This document shows, in pieces, positions 23,873 to 30,360 of a stretch of DNA of 41,670 nucleotides. Position numbers and translations under genes: made by a program. Source of the stretch: an uncultured Ignavibacteria bacterium (GTDB lineage: Bacteria > Bacteroidota > Ignavibacteria > Kapaibacteriales > UBA2268); contig CAIOZA010000083.1 in assembly GCA_903862655.1 (NCBI GenBank), positions 1 through 41,670 on the forward strand. Reading direction: 5' to 3'. A model generated the notes under the pieces. That model worked only from the letters and a program-made list of their open reading frames with translations, searched no databases and was not told the DNA's origin. Numbering within the stretch: the first letter of the stretch is position 1; each line of letters opens with the position of its first letter.

Positions 23873-26359
23873 CTATCTTGTTATTTTAATTACATTAGAC
23901 ATACAACCCATATTATTAATCAATTCAAGAAAGTAAATACCATGTGGCTTTCCTGATAAATCATATGGAAAGTAATAAATTTCGGATTCTAAATTAATTG
24001 AACCGATTTTTGAACGATTACCCAAAATATCAGTTAGGAATATCTCAACCAATCCGCTTTTTCCAGAATTATTTTGAATTTTTAGATCAATCAAATCCTC
24101 AGATTGAACTTTGTTGATTAATTCAAAAGTCAGATAGTTCCTTGTGGATTGTTCATCTGCTGAGGTATTGCAGTCGTAAATCCAGAAATTGTTTTCTGAT
24201 TGAGCAAGATAAATAATAGCATTGGTCTTTGTTGATATTCGTACTCTTCCCTCAGTCGTCGCTCTATCCGGTACCTTCCAATTATAATAACCCTTAATTG
24301 GATCAAGTGGTATGGGGGTGATTTTCTTCCAATTTTGCCCTCCATCGACTGAGTATTCAAGGTAACATATATTAATAAAATCACTACTCCATTGTATTCT
24401 GAACGTATCACCAATACAGAGTCTGTCAAAACCAATTGGAGTTGTTAATGATGCCTTCGGTAGTCCAATAGAAAATTTCCCACTTAATGACTGAAGATTT
24501 GTCCCATCTAAAGATGTGATCTTCAACAAATTATCATTGCTCTCAATAACAGGCAATGTCCATGAATATTCGGTTTTTATACCTTCAAATCCAATTGTTT
24601 CCCAACTATTACCATTATTACTACTAAAATCGATTTTGATTGAATCTACAAAAACTTTGTTCCAATTTAGCTTCAATATAGAATTCTGAGGGAATCTATC
24701 TCCTTCTTTGGGGTTTAGGATTGTTATCAATGGAGCTAAAACCGAGAAATTAACAAAGCTTCTGTCATTGATTGTAAGATCAGAAGAGGAATGAATAAGA
24801 ATCACAACTTCAGTACCTTGGATTTTATACGGTTTCCAAGTAAAAACTGAATCATTGGTATTTATATTGTCAGCAATGAGAATCCAGTCTGAACCAGCAT
24901 TTGTAGAGTATTTCAAACTTATCTTTGATACCAAACTGGATGTCCATCGGATAGGTATATTGTCGGTGCTACGGTATGTTACACCACCAAGAGGGGAAAG
25001 AAGTGAGACATAAGCTGATGAGACTTCCTTGGCGCATGTCGCATGCTCAACAGCTAATCTCATGCTTGGATATTCACGTGGATGAAAAATTAAATCAACA
25101 GAATGAGATTTATTAGTTAAGTGGCAATAACTCATTATAGTGCCTGAACGAGGTATTACATTGCCTGTTTTAATACAAGCATCGGAAACACCTGTTGCGG
25201 ATTCGGTAACGCAAGTATCAATCATATTTGGCTGATAATAACAACTGTGTGTATGCGGAGCACCGAAAAGATGACCAATTTCATGAGCCGCTACATTAAC
25301 ATCCCATGTATAAGCTGTTGTTGGATAAGTTACTCCGCCGCGGATACCCAAAACGCAATAACCATCATTCCTGCTGCAAAGATTGCCTTGACCAGGTTCA
25401 CCACCAAAAGCTATGCCTGCAACACTTACATTGCCCTGTTGTGCGGCTAAAGAAGCAAACAATACGACCATGGATCTCTCAATTGATTTGTTTTTCCACT
25501 GTTCAGGCATCGTGTATAATTTTTCACTTATAAGATTATCGTTTCTATAAGGATCAAGACTTGAATTTGTCCAAATTAAAAAATAGGAGATAACCAATCG
25601 AGTATTCAGAAATTCTTCGTATAATTTGGAAGTATGCTTGATTACTGATGTAATATACGCAGTGGCTTTTTCTTTGTCATTAAACAAAGCGAAAAATTCT
25701 GATGTTGCTTCACATGCTATGTTAACTTCCATCAATTTACTTGGAGAAAGTTGAATATTATTAGATTGTTTGGCCAAATCAAGTAATTCGCTGGATTCTA
25801 ATTCAATTTCTTTAGTTAAACAATTAAATTCATTCAATGAATTACTAGTAAAATTCGACGAAGTAAAATAATGAGCAATCGATTTGTCGGCTGCATTTAA
25901 AACAGGGCGAATTGAATATGCATCATTATTCCCCGTTTTAATGATACAAGTCATCATGCCATCACAATAACTAATATAAACCTTAGAGTCAGGGTCCGTT
26001 GTAATTTTACCAGAGAAGAAATATATTTTGGGTGCGGTAAAAGGTTCAATACCTCGACCTGCATTAAATTTAAATTGAGTGGTCTCGTTGAACGGTTCTG
26101 AGTCCTTCTTTAATTTCAAATTGAATGATGTATAGTTGTCGACTTTGAAATTAGTTATTAAAACTTCATCAGAATTCACATTAAAAATCTGATCAGCCTT
26201 TATTTTATTTAAATCAATTCTTGAAGTCGAGGATGTATTGCTAATATTTTGGTTGATTTTAATAAGAAAATTAGCATCAGTCTGAGTGATTTCCGCATTC
26301 AAATTTCGAGTTGAGATGATGCATAGAATCAGAAGAATATAGATCTTAAATTTTATCAT
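23873..26359 (-). CDS. Secreted reprolysin-like (M12B) metalloprotease with T9SS sorting domain
   Basis: Exported zinc protease of 828 residues. Residues 1-22 form a signal peptide, and residues 23-200 look like a propeptide region. The zinc site is HEIGHLFGAPH with H359, H363 and H369 as ligands and E360 as the catalytic base; a Met-turn follows in GTIMSYCHLTN. Several cysteines near the active site suggest disulfides. The segments after about residue 450 look like three Ig/fibronectin-like repeats. The last ~80 residues form a Type IX secretion (Por) C-terminal sorting domain, ending in GIYFLELINNMGCMSNVIKITR. Its ATG overlaps the tmk stop by four bases (ATGA at 26359-26356). It may be cell-surface attached; substrates are unknown. 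Confidence 0.9.
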   Translation of the reverse strand: MIKFKIYILLILCIISTRNLNAEITQTDANFLIKINQNISNTSSTSRIDLNKIKADQIFNVNSDEVLITNFKVDNYTSFNLKLKKDSEPFNETTQFKFNAGRGIEPFTAPKIYFFSGKITTDPDSKVYISYCDGMMTCIIKTGNNDAYSIRPVLNAADKSIAHYFTSSNFTSNSLNEFNCLTKEIELESSELLDLAKQSNNIQLSPSKLMEVNIACEATSEFFALFNDKEKATAYITSVIKHTSKLYEEFLNTRLVISYFLIWTNSSLDPYRNDNLISEKLYTMPEQWKNKSIERSMVVLFASLAAQQGNVSVAGIAFGGEPGQGNLCSRNDGYCVLGIRGGVTYPTTAYTWDVNVAAHEIGHLFGAPHTHSCYYQPNMIDTCVTESATGVSDACIKTGNVIPRSGTIMSYCHLTNKSHSVDLIFHPREYPSMRLAVEHATCAKEVSSAYVSLLSPLGGVTYRSTDNIPIRWTSSLVSKISLKYSTNAGSDWILIADNINTNDSVFTWKPYKIQGTEVVILIHSSSDLTINDRSFVNFSVLAPLITILNPKEGDRFPQNSILKLNWNKVFVDSIKIDFSSNNGNSWETIGFEGIKTEYSWTLPVIESNDNLLKITSLDGTNLQSLSGKFSIGLPKASLTTPIGFDRLCIGDTFRIQWSSDFINICYLEYSVDGGQNWKKITPIPLDPIKGYYNWKVPDRATTEGRVRISTKTNAIIYLAQSENNFWIYDCNTSADEQSTRNYLTFELINKVQSEDLIDLKIQNNSGKSGLVEIFLTDILGNRSKIGSINLESEIYYFPYDLSGKPHGIYFLELINNMGCMSNVIKITR

Positions 26360-26979
26360 GATAATAGGAAGATATTAGGGAACTTATCTGCTAATATTGA
26401 AAGTATATTATTGTGAGTTTTTTTTATGTCATTTTTAGCATTAATAACAATCATCCTCTCAGGTTCATTAACGGCAATTATGTGGAATCCCTTGATTACA
26501 TTTTCAAAAAATGAATCATCTGATAATTCGATTCTGTCAGAAATCCTGTAATTGGATCTTTTCTTTGATGTTTGGATATCAACATCAAGAAAGAAGGTCA
26601 GGTCAGGTTTTAATCCATTTGTTGCTATTGTATTGATTTGCGTTATATAATCAAGATTGATGCCCCTTCCATATCCCTGATAGGCTATTGTAGAATCATA
26701 AAACCTATCTGAGAGAACAATAAACCCATTATCAAGAGCTGGTCTTATTGTTTCTTGAATCAGATTGGCTCTGGCCGATTCAAAAAGAAGTAATTCTGTT
26801 ATAGGATCTATCACATTTTTTGAAGAAAGAAGAATTTTGCGAATTGCTTCAGATAAGTCATTTCCACCTGGTTCTCTAATAGTCAAGACTTTATTTCCTA
26901 GACTAATTAGATACTCAGATAATATTTTAATCTGAGTAGATTTACCACAGCCGTCAATACCTTCGAAACTAATAAACAT
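26356..26979 (-). CDS. tmk: Thymidylate kinase (dTMP kinase)
   Basis: Phosphorylates dTMP to dTDP in the dTTP pathway. The 207-residue product has the Walker A P-loop GIDGCGKST (K13, S14), the dTMP-binding motif DRFYDSTIAYQGYGRG containing the DR(Y/F) motif and the LID-region residues, and EPGG (REPGGNDLSE). The start at 26979 (MFISFEGIDG) is chosen because thymidylate kinases begin at this strand; an in-frame ATG at 26997 would add six residues. It overlaps the following protease gene by four bases, so the two are transcribed together. Confidence in the function is high. Confidence 0.95.
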   Translation of the reverse strand: MFISFEGIDGCGKSTQIKILSEYLISLGNKVLTIREPGGNDLSEAIRKILLSSKNVIDPITELLLFESARANLIQETIRPALDNGFIVLSDRFYDSTIAYQGYGRGINLDYITQINTIATNGLKPDLTFFLDVDIQTSKKRSNYRISDRIELSDDSFFENVIKGFHIIAVNEPERMIVINAKNDIKKTHNNILSILADKFPNIFLLS

Positions 26980-27125
26980 TAATAAAAAATTTAACATTTA
27001 ACAAGATACAAATTTAATTTATTTCAAAGTCATAAACACATTTATTTGTTAAGATGTTATTAATAAGATTGATTTTCTTAATTATTGATTATTTTTGTAT
27101 TCATTCTAAACCAAATAAAGAGATT

Positions 27126-29294
27126 ATGCCAAGAATAAAAAATGAAATTATCCCCACTGAGAATAAAGTGAAAGATAAGAATAAAGTAAAAGTCACAACT
27201 CCAACTGAAGTAGCTGTGATTGAACAGGAAAATGTTAGTCTTAATACTAAGAAAAAGCCATTGAATGCAACAACCCCTAAGAAGAAAGATACTCAAAAAC
27301 CTAAGAAAGTAATTAGCATTGAACAACCTTTAGAAGAGGAAAATTTTAATCGCAAACTACCTGAATTGATAATAAAAAAAGTAAAAAAATCTACACTAAA
27401 AAATGAAGTTAAAATCAATGTAGTACCCAAATCAAAACAAGTATTAAAATCTAATTCAAAATTAAGTAAGTTAAAAAAGTCAGAAACTATACCTATAACT
27501 GACAAACAACCCGATACTCCCAGAAAAATTATTGTATTAAAAAGGCATAGTGAACTTCCAGCACCTCAAGAGACAGAAGAAATAAAAATTGAAGTAATAG
27601 ATGAAATAAAGACTAAAAAAGCTAATCCTCCTTCTAAAAAAGCAAATAAACGTGTTGTTACTGATCTGCCAATACCAAAATCTGATTTACCAATCAAATC
27701 AGATATTAAGAAAGTAATTCCAAAAGCGGAAAAAGTAATTAGTGAAGAATTAACTAAAAAGATTGCTCAAACAAGTAAGAAATCAGAAAAAAAACAGAAC
27801 GACATTCCTCAAAAGGAAAAAAAGAAACACATTCAAAAGCCAATGCTGATTCAGCAGATAAATGAGAAATGTCTCTATTCTAAAGATGATTTGAAAGATA
27901 AACAAATATCGGATCTATATATTAAGTTCAAGAATAATCTTGAAAAGAATTTTGATCTTGCTGAAGGTTCAAAGATTTTGGTTGCCGTTAGTGGAGGAGT
28001 TGATTCAGTTGTGCTTTTGGATCTATTGGCTAATCTTGTTAAAGAAAAAAAAATCTTCTTATTGGTTTGTCATTTTAACCATAAACTAAGAGCTTTCAGT
28101 GCGGATAGTGACGAAAAGTTCGTAAATGAATTAGCTAAAAACTATGGTGTTAAGTTTTACACAGATTCTGGTAATGTTAAAGATTATGCAGAGAAAAATT
28201 CACAAAGTATTGAACAAGCTGCTAGAAATCTCAGGTATCAATTCTTTGAAAAATTGGGTAAATCAATGGATATTCCGTACATAACTTTAGCACACAACGC
28301 TGATGATTCAGCTGAAACATTTATTATCAATCTCATGCGAGGAACGGGTCTAACTGGATTATCTGGTATACCCGAACAAAGAACCGTCAGCAAAAAAACA
28401 CAGATAATCAGACCTTTACTAAAATATAAAAAGTCTGATTTATTGAATTATGCTATACAGAGAAAATTAAAATGGCATGAAGATGAGACTAATAGTCTGC
28501 TTCTTTATACTAGGAATAAAATTAGATTAGATCTAATTCCTAAGCTACAAAATGAATTTAATGAATCTATCATAGAAACAATTAATCGTACATCTTCTCT
28601 AATTAGATCTGCAGATGCTTTCATTAAAGATCATCTCGATATTTATATGAAATTCGTTAAATGGGATAAGAAGAGCGAATTGTTGACAATAAGAATTAGT
28701 CTATTAACAACATGTGATGAATATATTCAGGGTGAGATTATCCAAAAATCATTGGAGGATCATTTCCACACAAGAAACTTGTCGCTTAAAGTTATTGAAC
28801 GCATTATTAACCTGTCTGATCAATCTGTTGGGTCTGTTGTAGAGATAAATAAGAAAATTAGTGTTCTTAGAGATAGACTGAATCTCGTATTTTTTGCTCG
28901 TAAGGAAGAGTCAGAAACATATATTGAGATAGGTAGAATCGGCGAGTATAAGGTACATAATTATACTTTAGGAATGTCAGAAGTTAATAAAAATGACATT
29001 AAATTCTCTAATGACACTAATGTTGAGTTCATTGATCTCGATATGTTACCTATTAAATTAGTACTTAGGAATTGGAATCCCGGCGATAATTTTACCCCTT
29101 TGGGAATGGATGGAAGCGTTAAAATCAGTGATTTTCTTGTGAACAATAAAATTTCTCTTCTGGATAAAAGGAACATTCTTCTTTTGAGTACTAAAACTGA
29201 GATTATTTGGGTTTGTGGTCTAAGGATAAATGAAAAGTACAAAGTAAATCAAATGACTACAAGATATTTGAAATTAGAGTTGATAAAAGATTGA
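27126..29294 (+). CDS. tilS: tRNA(Ile)-lysidine synthase with long lysine-rich N-terminal extension
   Basis: Modifies cytidine-34 of tRNA(Ile) (CAU) to lysidine, allowing decoding of AUA. The PP-loop ATP-binding motif SGGVDS is at residues 289-294 counted from the ATG at 27126, and the catalytic lobe continues with HFNHKLR, EQAARNLRYQFF, LAHNADDSAETF and LMRGTGLTGLSGIP. The C-terminal TilS substrate domains end near NWNPGDNFTPLGMDG. The first ~260 residues are a repetitive, lysine- and proline-rich sequence that no typical TilS has (E. coli has the PP-loop near residue 20). An ATG at 27054 is also in frame but would add a hydrophobic segment (LLIRLIFLIIDYF), so 27126 (MPRIKNE) is preferred; this is a choice, not a certainty. 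hpt follows 10 bases later. Confidence 0.92.
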   Translation: MPRIKNEIIPTENKVKDKNKVKVTTPTEVAVIEQENVSLNTKKKPLNATTPKKKDTQKPKKVISIEQPLEEENFNRKLPELIIKKVKKSTLKNEVKINVVPKSKQVLKSNSKLSKLKKSETIPITDKQPDTPRKIIVLKRHSELPAPQETEEIKIEVIDEIKTKKANPPSKKANKRVVTDLPIPKSDLPIKSDIKKVIPKAEKVISEELTKKIAQTSKKSEKKQNDIPQKEKKKHIQKPMLIQQINEKCLYSKDDLKDKQISDLYIKFKNNLEKNFDLAEGSKILVAVSGGVDSVVLLDLLANLVKEKKIFLLVCHFNHKLRAFSADSDEKFVNELAKNYGVKFYTDSGNVKDYAEKNSQSIEQAARNLRYQFFEKLGKSMDIPYITLAHNADDSAETFIINLMRGTGLTGLSGIPEQRTVSKKTQIIRPLLKYKKSDLLNYAIQRKLKWHEDETNSLLLYTRNKIRLDLIPKLQNEFNESIIETINRTSSLIRSADAFIKDHLDIYMKFVKWDKKSELLTIRISLLTTCDEYIQGEIIQKSLEDHFHTRNLSLKVIERIINLSDQSVGSVVEINKKISVLRDRLNLVFFARKEESETYIEIGRIGEYKVHNYTLGMSEVNKNDIKFSNDTNVEFIDLDMLPIKLVLRNWNPGDNFTPLGMDGSVKISDFLVNNKISLLDKRNILLLSTKTEIIWVCGLRINEKYKVNQMTTRYLKLELIKD

Positions 29295-29304
29295 AGGATA
29301 GCTA

Positions 29305-29853
29305 ATGATTGAGCCCATTCATATTAAAGATAAATATTTTGAAAAATATATTTCAGAATCTGAAATATATTCTTTGTTGGTAGAAATGGCTAGCAAAATT
29401 AAATCGGATTACCAGTCAAAGGATATCGTTTATTTAGTGGTTCTTAAGGGTGCTTTCATTTTTGCCTCTGACATAATTCGCGAGATTGGTATAGAATCTG
29501 AAGTTTTTTTTATCAATGCTTCTAGCTATAAATCAGGTTTAATCAGTTCAGGTAATGTTGAATTGCAAATTGGACCAATTAATGTTGAACGTAGGGATAT
29601 ACTTATCATTGAAGACATAGTTGATTCTGGTCGTACTATGTCTGCTTTGATTAAAGATTTAGAGAAATATAAACCAAACAGTGTTGAAATTGCAACTTTC
29701 TTTTCTAAACCTGAAGAAAGAGTTGCTGATATACGGGTTAAATATATTGGAATCGAAATCCCATCAAAATTTGTAATTGGCTATGGCTTGGATTATGCTG
29801 AACAAGGAAGATACCTCAAAGATATATATGTTTTGACAAATCATTCAATTTAA
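29305..29853 (+). CDS. hpt: Hypoxanthine phosphoribosyltransferase
   Basis: Purine salvage enzyme that joins hypoxanthine or guanine to PRPP. The 182-residue product shows the PRPP-binding loop ILIIEDIVDSGRTMSAL with the adjacent acidic pair E103-D104, and the base-recognition segment EIPSKFVIGYGLDYAEQGR near the C-terminus. FLKGAF-type sequence (VVLKGAFIFASDI) holds the PPi loop. GAAGGA lies about 7 bases upstream of the ATG at 29305. tilS-hpt is a very common neighbour pair in bacteria, consistent with one operon. Confidence 0.95.
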   Translation: MIEPIHIKDKYFEKYISESEIYSLLVEMASKIKSDYQSKDIVYLVVLKGAFIFASDIIREIGIESEVFFINASSYKSGLISSGNVELQIGPINVERRDILIIEDIVDSGRTMSALIKDLEKYKPNSVEIATFFSKPEERVADIRVKYIGIEIPSKFVIGYGLDYAEQGRYLKDIYVLTNHSI

Positions 29854-29913
29854 AATATAAAAGTTATCTAACCGACTTAGCTTCGATATTAAACATCAAT
29901 TGAGATAATAAGA

Positions 29914-30360
29914 ATGAATACTGAGGAATTTATATCTTTATCCGAAGAAGATACAATAGCTTTAGGTGCTAAGTTTGCTGAACGATTAAATGTCGGTGAT
30001 GCCGTTGCACTAACCGGAGATCTAGGGTCGGGCAAAACAGAATTCATTAAAGGTATATGCGATTATTTCAATGTCGAGGATATTGTTAACAGTCCTACTT
30101 TTACAATCATTAACCAATATCATGGTGAAAAGAATAAAGAAGAAATTCATATTTATCATCTTGATTTATATAGGATAAAATCCCCTGCGGAACTTTCCGA
30201 GATTGGTTTTAGCGAATGTTTGCACTCTGATGAAATTATTAAGTTAATAGAGTGGGCTGAAAAAGCCGGAGATTTTCTTTGTAAATGGGATTACAAAGTT
30301 AATTTGAATCTTTCGGATGACGACGAAAACCTAAGACAGATCATAATAACTACAAATTAG
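29914..30360 (+). CDS. tsaE: tRNA threonylcarbamoyladenosine biosynthesis ATPase TsaE
   Basis: ATPase partner of TsaB and TsaD in making the t6A modification of ANN-decoding tRNAs. The 148-residue product contains the Walker A GDLGSGKTEF (G35, K41, T42), the switch segment SPTFTIINQYHG, IYHLDLYRIKSPAELSEIGF and the C-terminal IKLIEWAEKAGDF, all standard. It follows hpt by 60 bases. No Shine-Dalgarno is obvious. Confidence 0.95.
   Translation: MNTEEFISLSEEDTIALGAKFAERLNVGDAVALTGDLGSGKTEFIKGICDYFNVEDIVNSPTFTIINQYHGEKNKEEIHIYHLDLYRIKSPAELSEIGFSECLHSDEIIKLIEWAEKAGDFLCKWDYKVNLNLSDDDENLRQIIITTN

Follow-up and report, generated by a model that had tools for sequence, protein, structure and literature searches.

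TilS is the tRNA(Ile2)-lysidine synthetase, and the tRNA it modifies lets cells read the AUA codon. The bacterial enzyme solved together with tRNA (3a2k, presumably the protein of G. kaustophilus) is a chain of 464 residues. Among eukaryotic tRNA enzymes, the aminoacyl-tRNA synthetases are known for long appendages that are both disordered and basic. The N-terminal domain of human LysRS is disordered and basic and binds nucleic acids, tRNA among them, without specificity (excerpt of PMC6213541), and in hDus2 a short extension N-terminal to the dsRBD contributes further tRNA contacts (PMC6451096, in the section excerpted). In Bacteroides thetaiotaomicron, KE-rich disordered segments of the transcription terminator Rho control its condensation with RNA (excerpted account in PMC13269538), and TilS of Plasmodium falciparum carries an N-terminal extension of 180 residues, a predicted apicoplast transit peptide (partial text of PMC12069591). 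Among the matches listed in our literature searches on TilS and lysidine, on disorder in Kapabacteria and on the tails of tRNA- and RNA-modification enzymes, no bacterial TilS tail was reported, and Plasmodium was the only organism with a long N-terminal TilS extension.

Here we describe a tilS gene in which an apparently ordinary catalytic core follows a long, lysine-rich tail. It lies in the window, by which we mean the whole 41,670-nucleotide stretch analysed, from an uncultured Ignavibacteria bacterium. The open reading frame listing gives a stop-free frame of 746 codons (27054–29294, plus strand), which from the ATG at 27126 encodes 722 residues and has the following features, with the evidence for each in brackets:

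27054..27056, plus strand: alternative upstream ATG, which would add 24 residues (MLLIRLIFLIIDYF...) (open reading frame listing)
27126..27857, plus strand: N-terminal lysine-rich disordered extension, residues 1–244 (frame, pLDDT, composition, relatives)
27843..27845, plus strand: internal ATG, 49 codons ahead of SGGVDS, a possible start of a tail-less isoform (sequence reading)
27858..27971, plus strand: junction and first TilS core helix, 259–275 in the model (AlphaFold2)
27972..28526, plus strand: PP-loop ATPase domain ATP_bind_3 (PF01171 E 1.8e-55; TIGR02432 E 9.7e-60; invariant motif columns)
27990–28007, plus strand: SGGVDS motif (within the PP-loop domain)
29061..29264, plus strand: TilS_C, the C-terminal substrate domain (PF11734 E 1.6e-05; model core matches 3a2k)

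The ATG at 27126 appears a likelier start than that at 27054, because many tails in relatives begin with M-A/P/S-K/R. The neighbourhood is ordinary: in the surrounding 26356–30360, genes named by eye as HPRT-like and TsaE-like lie downstream on the same strand, and a divergent gene, named by eye as thymidylate-kinase-like, lies upstream.

Both Pfam and NCBIfam place the start of the TilS domain at residue 283 of 722 (307 in the 746-codon frame), with scores of 201.7 bits for TIGR02432 against a curated cut-off of 93.6 and 188 for ATP_bind_3 against 27; the C-terminal TilS_C domain was matched closer to its cut-offs (PF11734, 24.6 bits against 22; TIGR02433, 23.3 against 20.2). An AlphaFold2 model based on 39 aligned TilS sequences found its best solved-structure match in the TilS-tRNA complex 3a2k_A (E 1.6e-32, TMt 0.78), and its TMt with 2e21_B was 0.90. 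Since the modelled core folds as the tRNA-bound enzyme, with query residues 275–718 aligned to 3a2k by phmmer, we regard this TilS core as ordinary and complete, with lysidine formation at C34 of tRNA(Ile2) as its predicted activity. It shares the core fold, the PP-loop SGGVDS and the TilS_C domain with 3a2k but, unlike that chain, is preceded by ~250 disordered residues.

This tail had been noticed in a first-pass annotation made from the DNA letters, which described a lysine/proline-rich extension of ~260 residues, basic and probably disordered, in a frame that stays open without any frameshift. Our analysis bears this description out. Counting from the ATG at 27126, SGGVDS begins at residue 289, and the first 267 residues contain 22.8% lysine, 8.2% proline, 13.9% glutamate plus aspartate and 0% glycine, with a net charge of +29 and a pI of 9.9. 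In the model, pLDDT is below 50 at residues 1–25, 27–203 and 212–244 and its mean rises from 51 (residues 241–250) to 92 (residues 261–270); 389 of the 722 residues reach at least 90 and, by block means, fall in the core. With a FoldIndex of –0.18, the tail is thus predicted to be disordered by pLDDT and FoldIndex alike, and it is basic by its net charge. The frame is stop-free from 27126 to 29294, whereas the other five frames of the extension DNA carry 7–41 stops. When this DNA was resampled 5000 times under a first-order Markov model, frame 0 never stayed open, and the longest open run over three frames was 137 codons. The open frame over the extension therefore exceeds chance. The region had also been called repetitive, which holds for its low complexity and not for the DNA: TRF found no tandem array in 27000–28000, unlike in many relatives. 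The suggestion that it might be an embedded segment of another protein had to be abandoned, as the extension has no family match and the genome contains a single TilS match. Pfam and NCBIfam searches at E up to 1 gave no family for the first 275 residues, sequence matches in the PDB (E up to 0.001) were confined to the core (query residues 275 onwards), and none of the three revealed homology of the extension to a known appended domain.

Long tails of this kind recur across the order, which is the Candidatus Kapabacteria lineage (NCBI places Kapaibacterium in Bacteroidota). TilS was matched in 113 of its 123 genomes, and we read the upstream frames at 93 loci; in the 20 other matched genomes the open frame does not exceed 517 aa. 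An extension was scored where at least 40 residues separate the first ATG (or the contig end, if cut) from the position 45 residues before SGG, and two loci (G031, G068) were entered as extended by eye. By this measure 60 of the 93 loci are extended, one of them (G046) doubtfully, 31 have no tail and 2 are cut by contig ends (G085, G103). The extended loci span 31 genera and 9 of the 10 families; dropping G046, the only case in its family and probably a GC-rich chance frame, brings the loci to 59, the genera to 30 and the families to 8. Family by family, extensions were found at 23/46 loci in f1, 1/8 in f2, 8/8 in f3, 3/3 in f4 (of 41 residues only), 0/2 in f5, 1/1 in f6, 9/10 in f7 (the tenth being contig-cut), 3/3 in f8, 11/11 in f9 and 1/1 in f10. 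Their length ranges from 41 to 779 residues with a median of 280, contig-cut ones counting as lower bounds.

Outside the order, the long frames that we re-read did not hold up as tails. A class-wide search matched TilS in 164 of 197 genomes and a phylum-wide control in 294 of 296. Among the class-wide matches listed, all three non-order frames longer than 600 aa failed: G135 and G153 (f13) have just 33 residues ahead of the match, so their length sits elsewhere, and that of G134 (f21), like that of L177, reads through what we take, from a peptide hallmark, to be tRNA-gene-like sequence. Among the phylum-wide matches listed, the longest non-order frames besides G134 measure 614 aa (G288, G292). 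In all 12 long non-order frames that were re-read, these two included, the first in-frame ATG stands 14–59 residues before the match start; the same stretches hold 44–173 open codons in total, with net charges of +3 to +19, and most are GC-rich. Of 80 named loci, 8 show an open stretch of 150 codons or more ahead of the match, and six of these belong to this lineage by contig or by sequence (L169, L171–L175). One of the six, L171 (JAGXRP010000035.1), is titled Desulfobulbaceae bacterium and shares its TilS coordinates with G094; the title looks wrong. The remaining two of the eight, the Alistipes loci L219 and L231, were rejected as extensions, being GC-rich frames that look like chance. Elsewhere in the class, the TilS frames of L105 and L106 (f13) run to 853 and 971 aa, but their excess is not upstream of the core, so that a C-terminal fusion is probable.

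Because our searches found no same-genus genome for the window's organism, codon-level tests were run on relatives. Thirteen same-genus pairs from f1, f3, f4, f7 and f9, drawn from 60 pairs used for dN/dS, were aligned as DNA only. Third codon positions were the most changed in all 13. In eight close pairs (G081/G082, G019/G081, G019/G080, G116/G118, G115/G121, G104/G106, G029/G102 and G025/G066), every one of 23 indels is divisible by three; over all 13 pairs this holds for 46 of 62, the other 16 falling in four pairs that are rich in repeats or more divergent and in which DNA alignment is ambiguous (G093/G095, G094/G095, G104/G107, G106/G107). Nei-Gojobori dN/dS for the 60 pairs, where calculable and on a protein-guided alignment that lowers dN, was 0.13–0.63 in the extension and 0.01–0.19 in the core, several-fold higher in the extension in most pairs yet below 1. 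By these codon signatures the extension is translated and under weak purifying selection in related genera, and in the window's genome it is very probably made as protein. The first-pass annotation had named an internal start with no coding conservation upstream as the outcome that would undo its reading; in the relatives, the upstream stretch instead evolves as coding DNA.

What persists between tails is composition. All but one of the 60 tails carry a positive net charge, and the genus mean is positive in 30 of 31; K+R is higher than in the core in 58 tails and proline in 57, while hydrophobic residues are more frequent than in the core in 2, their share averaging 0.19 in tails against 0.37 in cores. 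At the 60 loci, FoldIndex is below zero for the tail in 56 and for the core in none. Of the 53 tails whose start is intact, 34 have at least two K/R within the first six residues, compared with 8 of 31 short TilS. As GC varies, lysine is exchanged for arginine in the tails (rho –0.75 for K and 0.82 for R) and K+R stays nearly flat (–0.28); the swap by itself is mutational bias, because the core shows it too (–0.88 and 0.88). The net charge of the core is likewise positive in 43 of 60 loci. In GC-rich families positive charge alone proves nothing, because chance open frames are basic too; of the GC-rich families f3, f7, f8 and f10, the coding test covered f3 and f7. A few tails are near neutral, with G012 at a net charge of –2 and G001, G032, G105, G112 and G117 at no more than 0.017 per residue.

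Sequence and length, by contrast with this composition, change fast. BLASTP of 59 tails against one another (G134 and 58 from the order), with low-complexity masking on and sensitivity lowered by it, detected no homology or shared motif between tails of different genera beyond two pairs at E <0.01, both core-proximal; shuffled tail queries gave 0 rows. Tandem repeats that keep the frame were found by TRF in 23 of the 55 extensions; they are a likely route of tail growth. In tails of the genus g50 (L045, L048, L051, L093), short motifs such as KLSYWQQRRLQKKLKQ and EKKILPVPADKLLP recur and resemble reiterated linear motifs. On a quick tree of 93 cores, which omitted G135, G153 and the short piece G113, the extended or short label needs at least 10 changes when G134 and G046 count as extended, 4 of them forced by starred branches; shuffled labels need 26 on average, and 0 of 500 shuffles were as low. 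The count falls to 8 without G134 and G046 as extended, and to 7 when tails shorter than 100 residues are also dropped. The sister row of the window's TilS is a short TilS (G021, support 86). The tail is thus clade-wide, predicted to be disordered and fast in sequence and length, with low hydrophobicity and positive charge persisting. Pooled over related genomes, ATA makes up 254 of 872 isoleucine codons in tails and 378 of 1933 in cores (OR 1.69, p 3e-8), and 27 of 38 tails have a higher share than their core. We do not claim autoregulation by AUA, whereby the tail would be translatable only once TilS had made lysidine, because the tail in the window (9 of 26) falls inside the range of five neighbouring genes (18–41%).

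Among 708 ORFs in 0.99 Mb of the genome, no basic stretch of low hydrophobicity is longer than the TilS tail, by a criterion fixed after the tail had been seen; the C-terminal tail of an RsmI-like methylase comes second. Comparable extensions were absent from two other enzymes searched in 51 genomes of the order: MnmA gave 47 matches above cut-off in frames of 352–487 aa against a 351-position profile, and TruB 50 in frames of 224–360 aa against 210 positions, leaving at most 136 and 150 residues beyond the profile, respectively. Most of the 51 genomes have a pair of RsmI matches, of which one is often long-framed (up to 646 aa). In the window's genome, a second RsmI-like methylase (L119; G000:C11 17126–18778, minus strand) has its TP_methylase domain at residues 16–215 and a disordered C-terminal tail of ~311 residues, rich in RG, DR and RRP. 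Two further proteins, named by eye, have basic C-terminal tails of low complexity: one has an RDxGRD-rich end (G000:C19 97823–99370), and the other, which resembles ribosomal protein L17, has a K/A-rich end (G000:C6 40008–40739).

We propose, with somewhat better than even confidence, that this is an ordinary TilS whose appended disordered basic tail acts as an electrostatic RNA tether. Charge, disorder and the analogy with eukaryotic tRNA enzymes all suggest that the tail may bind RNA. It would keep TilS near RNA non-specifically (tRNA, perhaps ribosomes or other RNA) and so raise the local substrate concentration, and the folded core, with the architecture of tRNA-bound TilS, would supply specificity and catalysis. 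Counting against such a tether are the 31 of 93 order loci that have no tail, so that TilS works there without one, and the near-neutral tails, which would be unexpected if charge alone did the tethering. The positive charge of most cores, the K-for-R swap shared with the core, the basic character of chance frames and the lack of a motif detected between tails of different genera (BLASTP with masking on) also weigh against it. Its main rival, which we judge unlikely though a serious contender, is that the tail is near-neutral, functionless filler, tolerated while it grows by replication slippage and kept soluble by its charge. The in-frame tandem repeats, the spread of lengths from 41 to 779 residues, the same tail-less third of loci, at least 7–10 gains or losses depending on labelling (4 forced by starred branches) and a dN/dS several-fold that of the core in most pairs all fit such an expansion. 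Yet dN/dS stays below 1, positive net charge is kept in 59 of 60 tails, the tail itself is kept throughout f3 (8/8) and f9 (11/11) and in f7 at every locus but the contig-cut tenth, and MnmA and TruB in the same order have no comparable extension. Another explanation, that the start is mis-annotated and TilS truly begins near 27843 behind a non-coding open frame, draws on the in-frame ATG 49 codons before SGGVDS, about where short TilS begin, and on the presence of some start codon (ATG, GTG or TTG) 25–60 codons before SGG in 45 of 60 extended loci. It is nevertheless very improbable: an ATG at that distance is missing in 33 of the 60, the Markov resamples do not lead one to expect the open frame by chance, and the stretch evolves as coding DNA in related genera, a result that concerns the relatives rather than this gene. 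Given internal starts in 27 of 60 loci (ATG) or 45 of 60 (ATG, GTG or TTG), an additional tail-less isoform is possible; an AAGGA-like stretch lies 26–30 bases upstream of the ATG at 27843.

The tail could also, by analogy, serve as a scaffold that drives TilS into RNA-rich condensates or assemblies, perhaps with the RG/DR-rich tail of the RsmI paralogue, an idea we consider improbable. Many relatives carry mixed-charge blocks of K/E or R/D/E, a disordered tail is also present on the second RsmI-like protein encoded in this genome, and the excerpted text of PMC13269538 describes KE-rich segments of BtRho as controlling condensation with RNA; against this, no shared motif was detected between tails of different genera by BLASTP with masking on. 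It is just as doubtful that rapidly evolving charged tails bring TilS, along with the RsmI paralogue, together with RNA in a condensate or in an assembly coupled to translation, as a convergent bacterial counterpart of the domains appended to eukaryotic tRNA enzymes. A targeting signal, as proposed for the Plasmodium extension at the same position of the same enzyme (PMC12069591, in part), is scarcely credible: a start at 27054 would place a hydrophobic stretch in front, but bacteria have no apicoplast, 34 of 53 tails begin with at least two K/R in the first six residues, and hydrophobic residues are half as frequent in tails (0.19) as in cores (0.37).

With natural tails of 0 to ~780 residues on a constant core, this one enzyme offers a ready test bed for tail function, the tail being open to truncation, exchange or charge reversal. 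Eukaryotic aminoacyl-tRNA synthetases such as LysRS share with this TilS a basic disordered N-terminal appendage on a tRNA enzyme, one that the excerpt of PMC6213541 describes as missing from the prokaryotic counterparts; LysRS is a different enzyme, we claim no sequence relation to it, and RNA binding by the TilS tail is a supposition. The hDus2 extension is likewise an appendage on a tRNA-modifying enzyme but is structured, adjoins a dsRBD and is human (PMC6451096, as excerpted). BtRho offers a K/E-rich disordered region on an RNA enzyme from the same phylum, whereas, in the part of PMC13269538 concerned, it terminates transcription and has a segment that Bacteroides species conserve; condensation was shown for Rho and is conjectural for TilS. 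The long N-terminal extension of P. falciparum TilS differs in being a predicted transit peptide (partial text of PMC12069591). The TilS tail resembles the LysRS, hDus2 and BtRho regions in physics, not in sequence.
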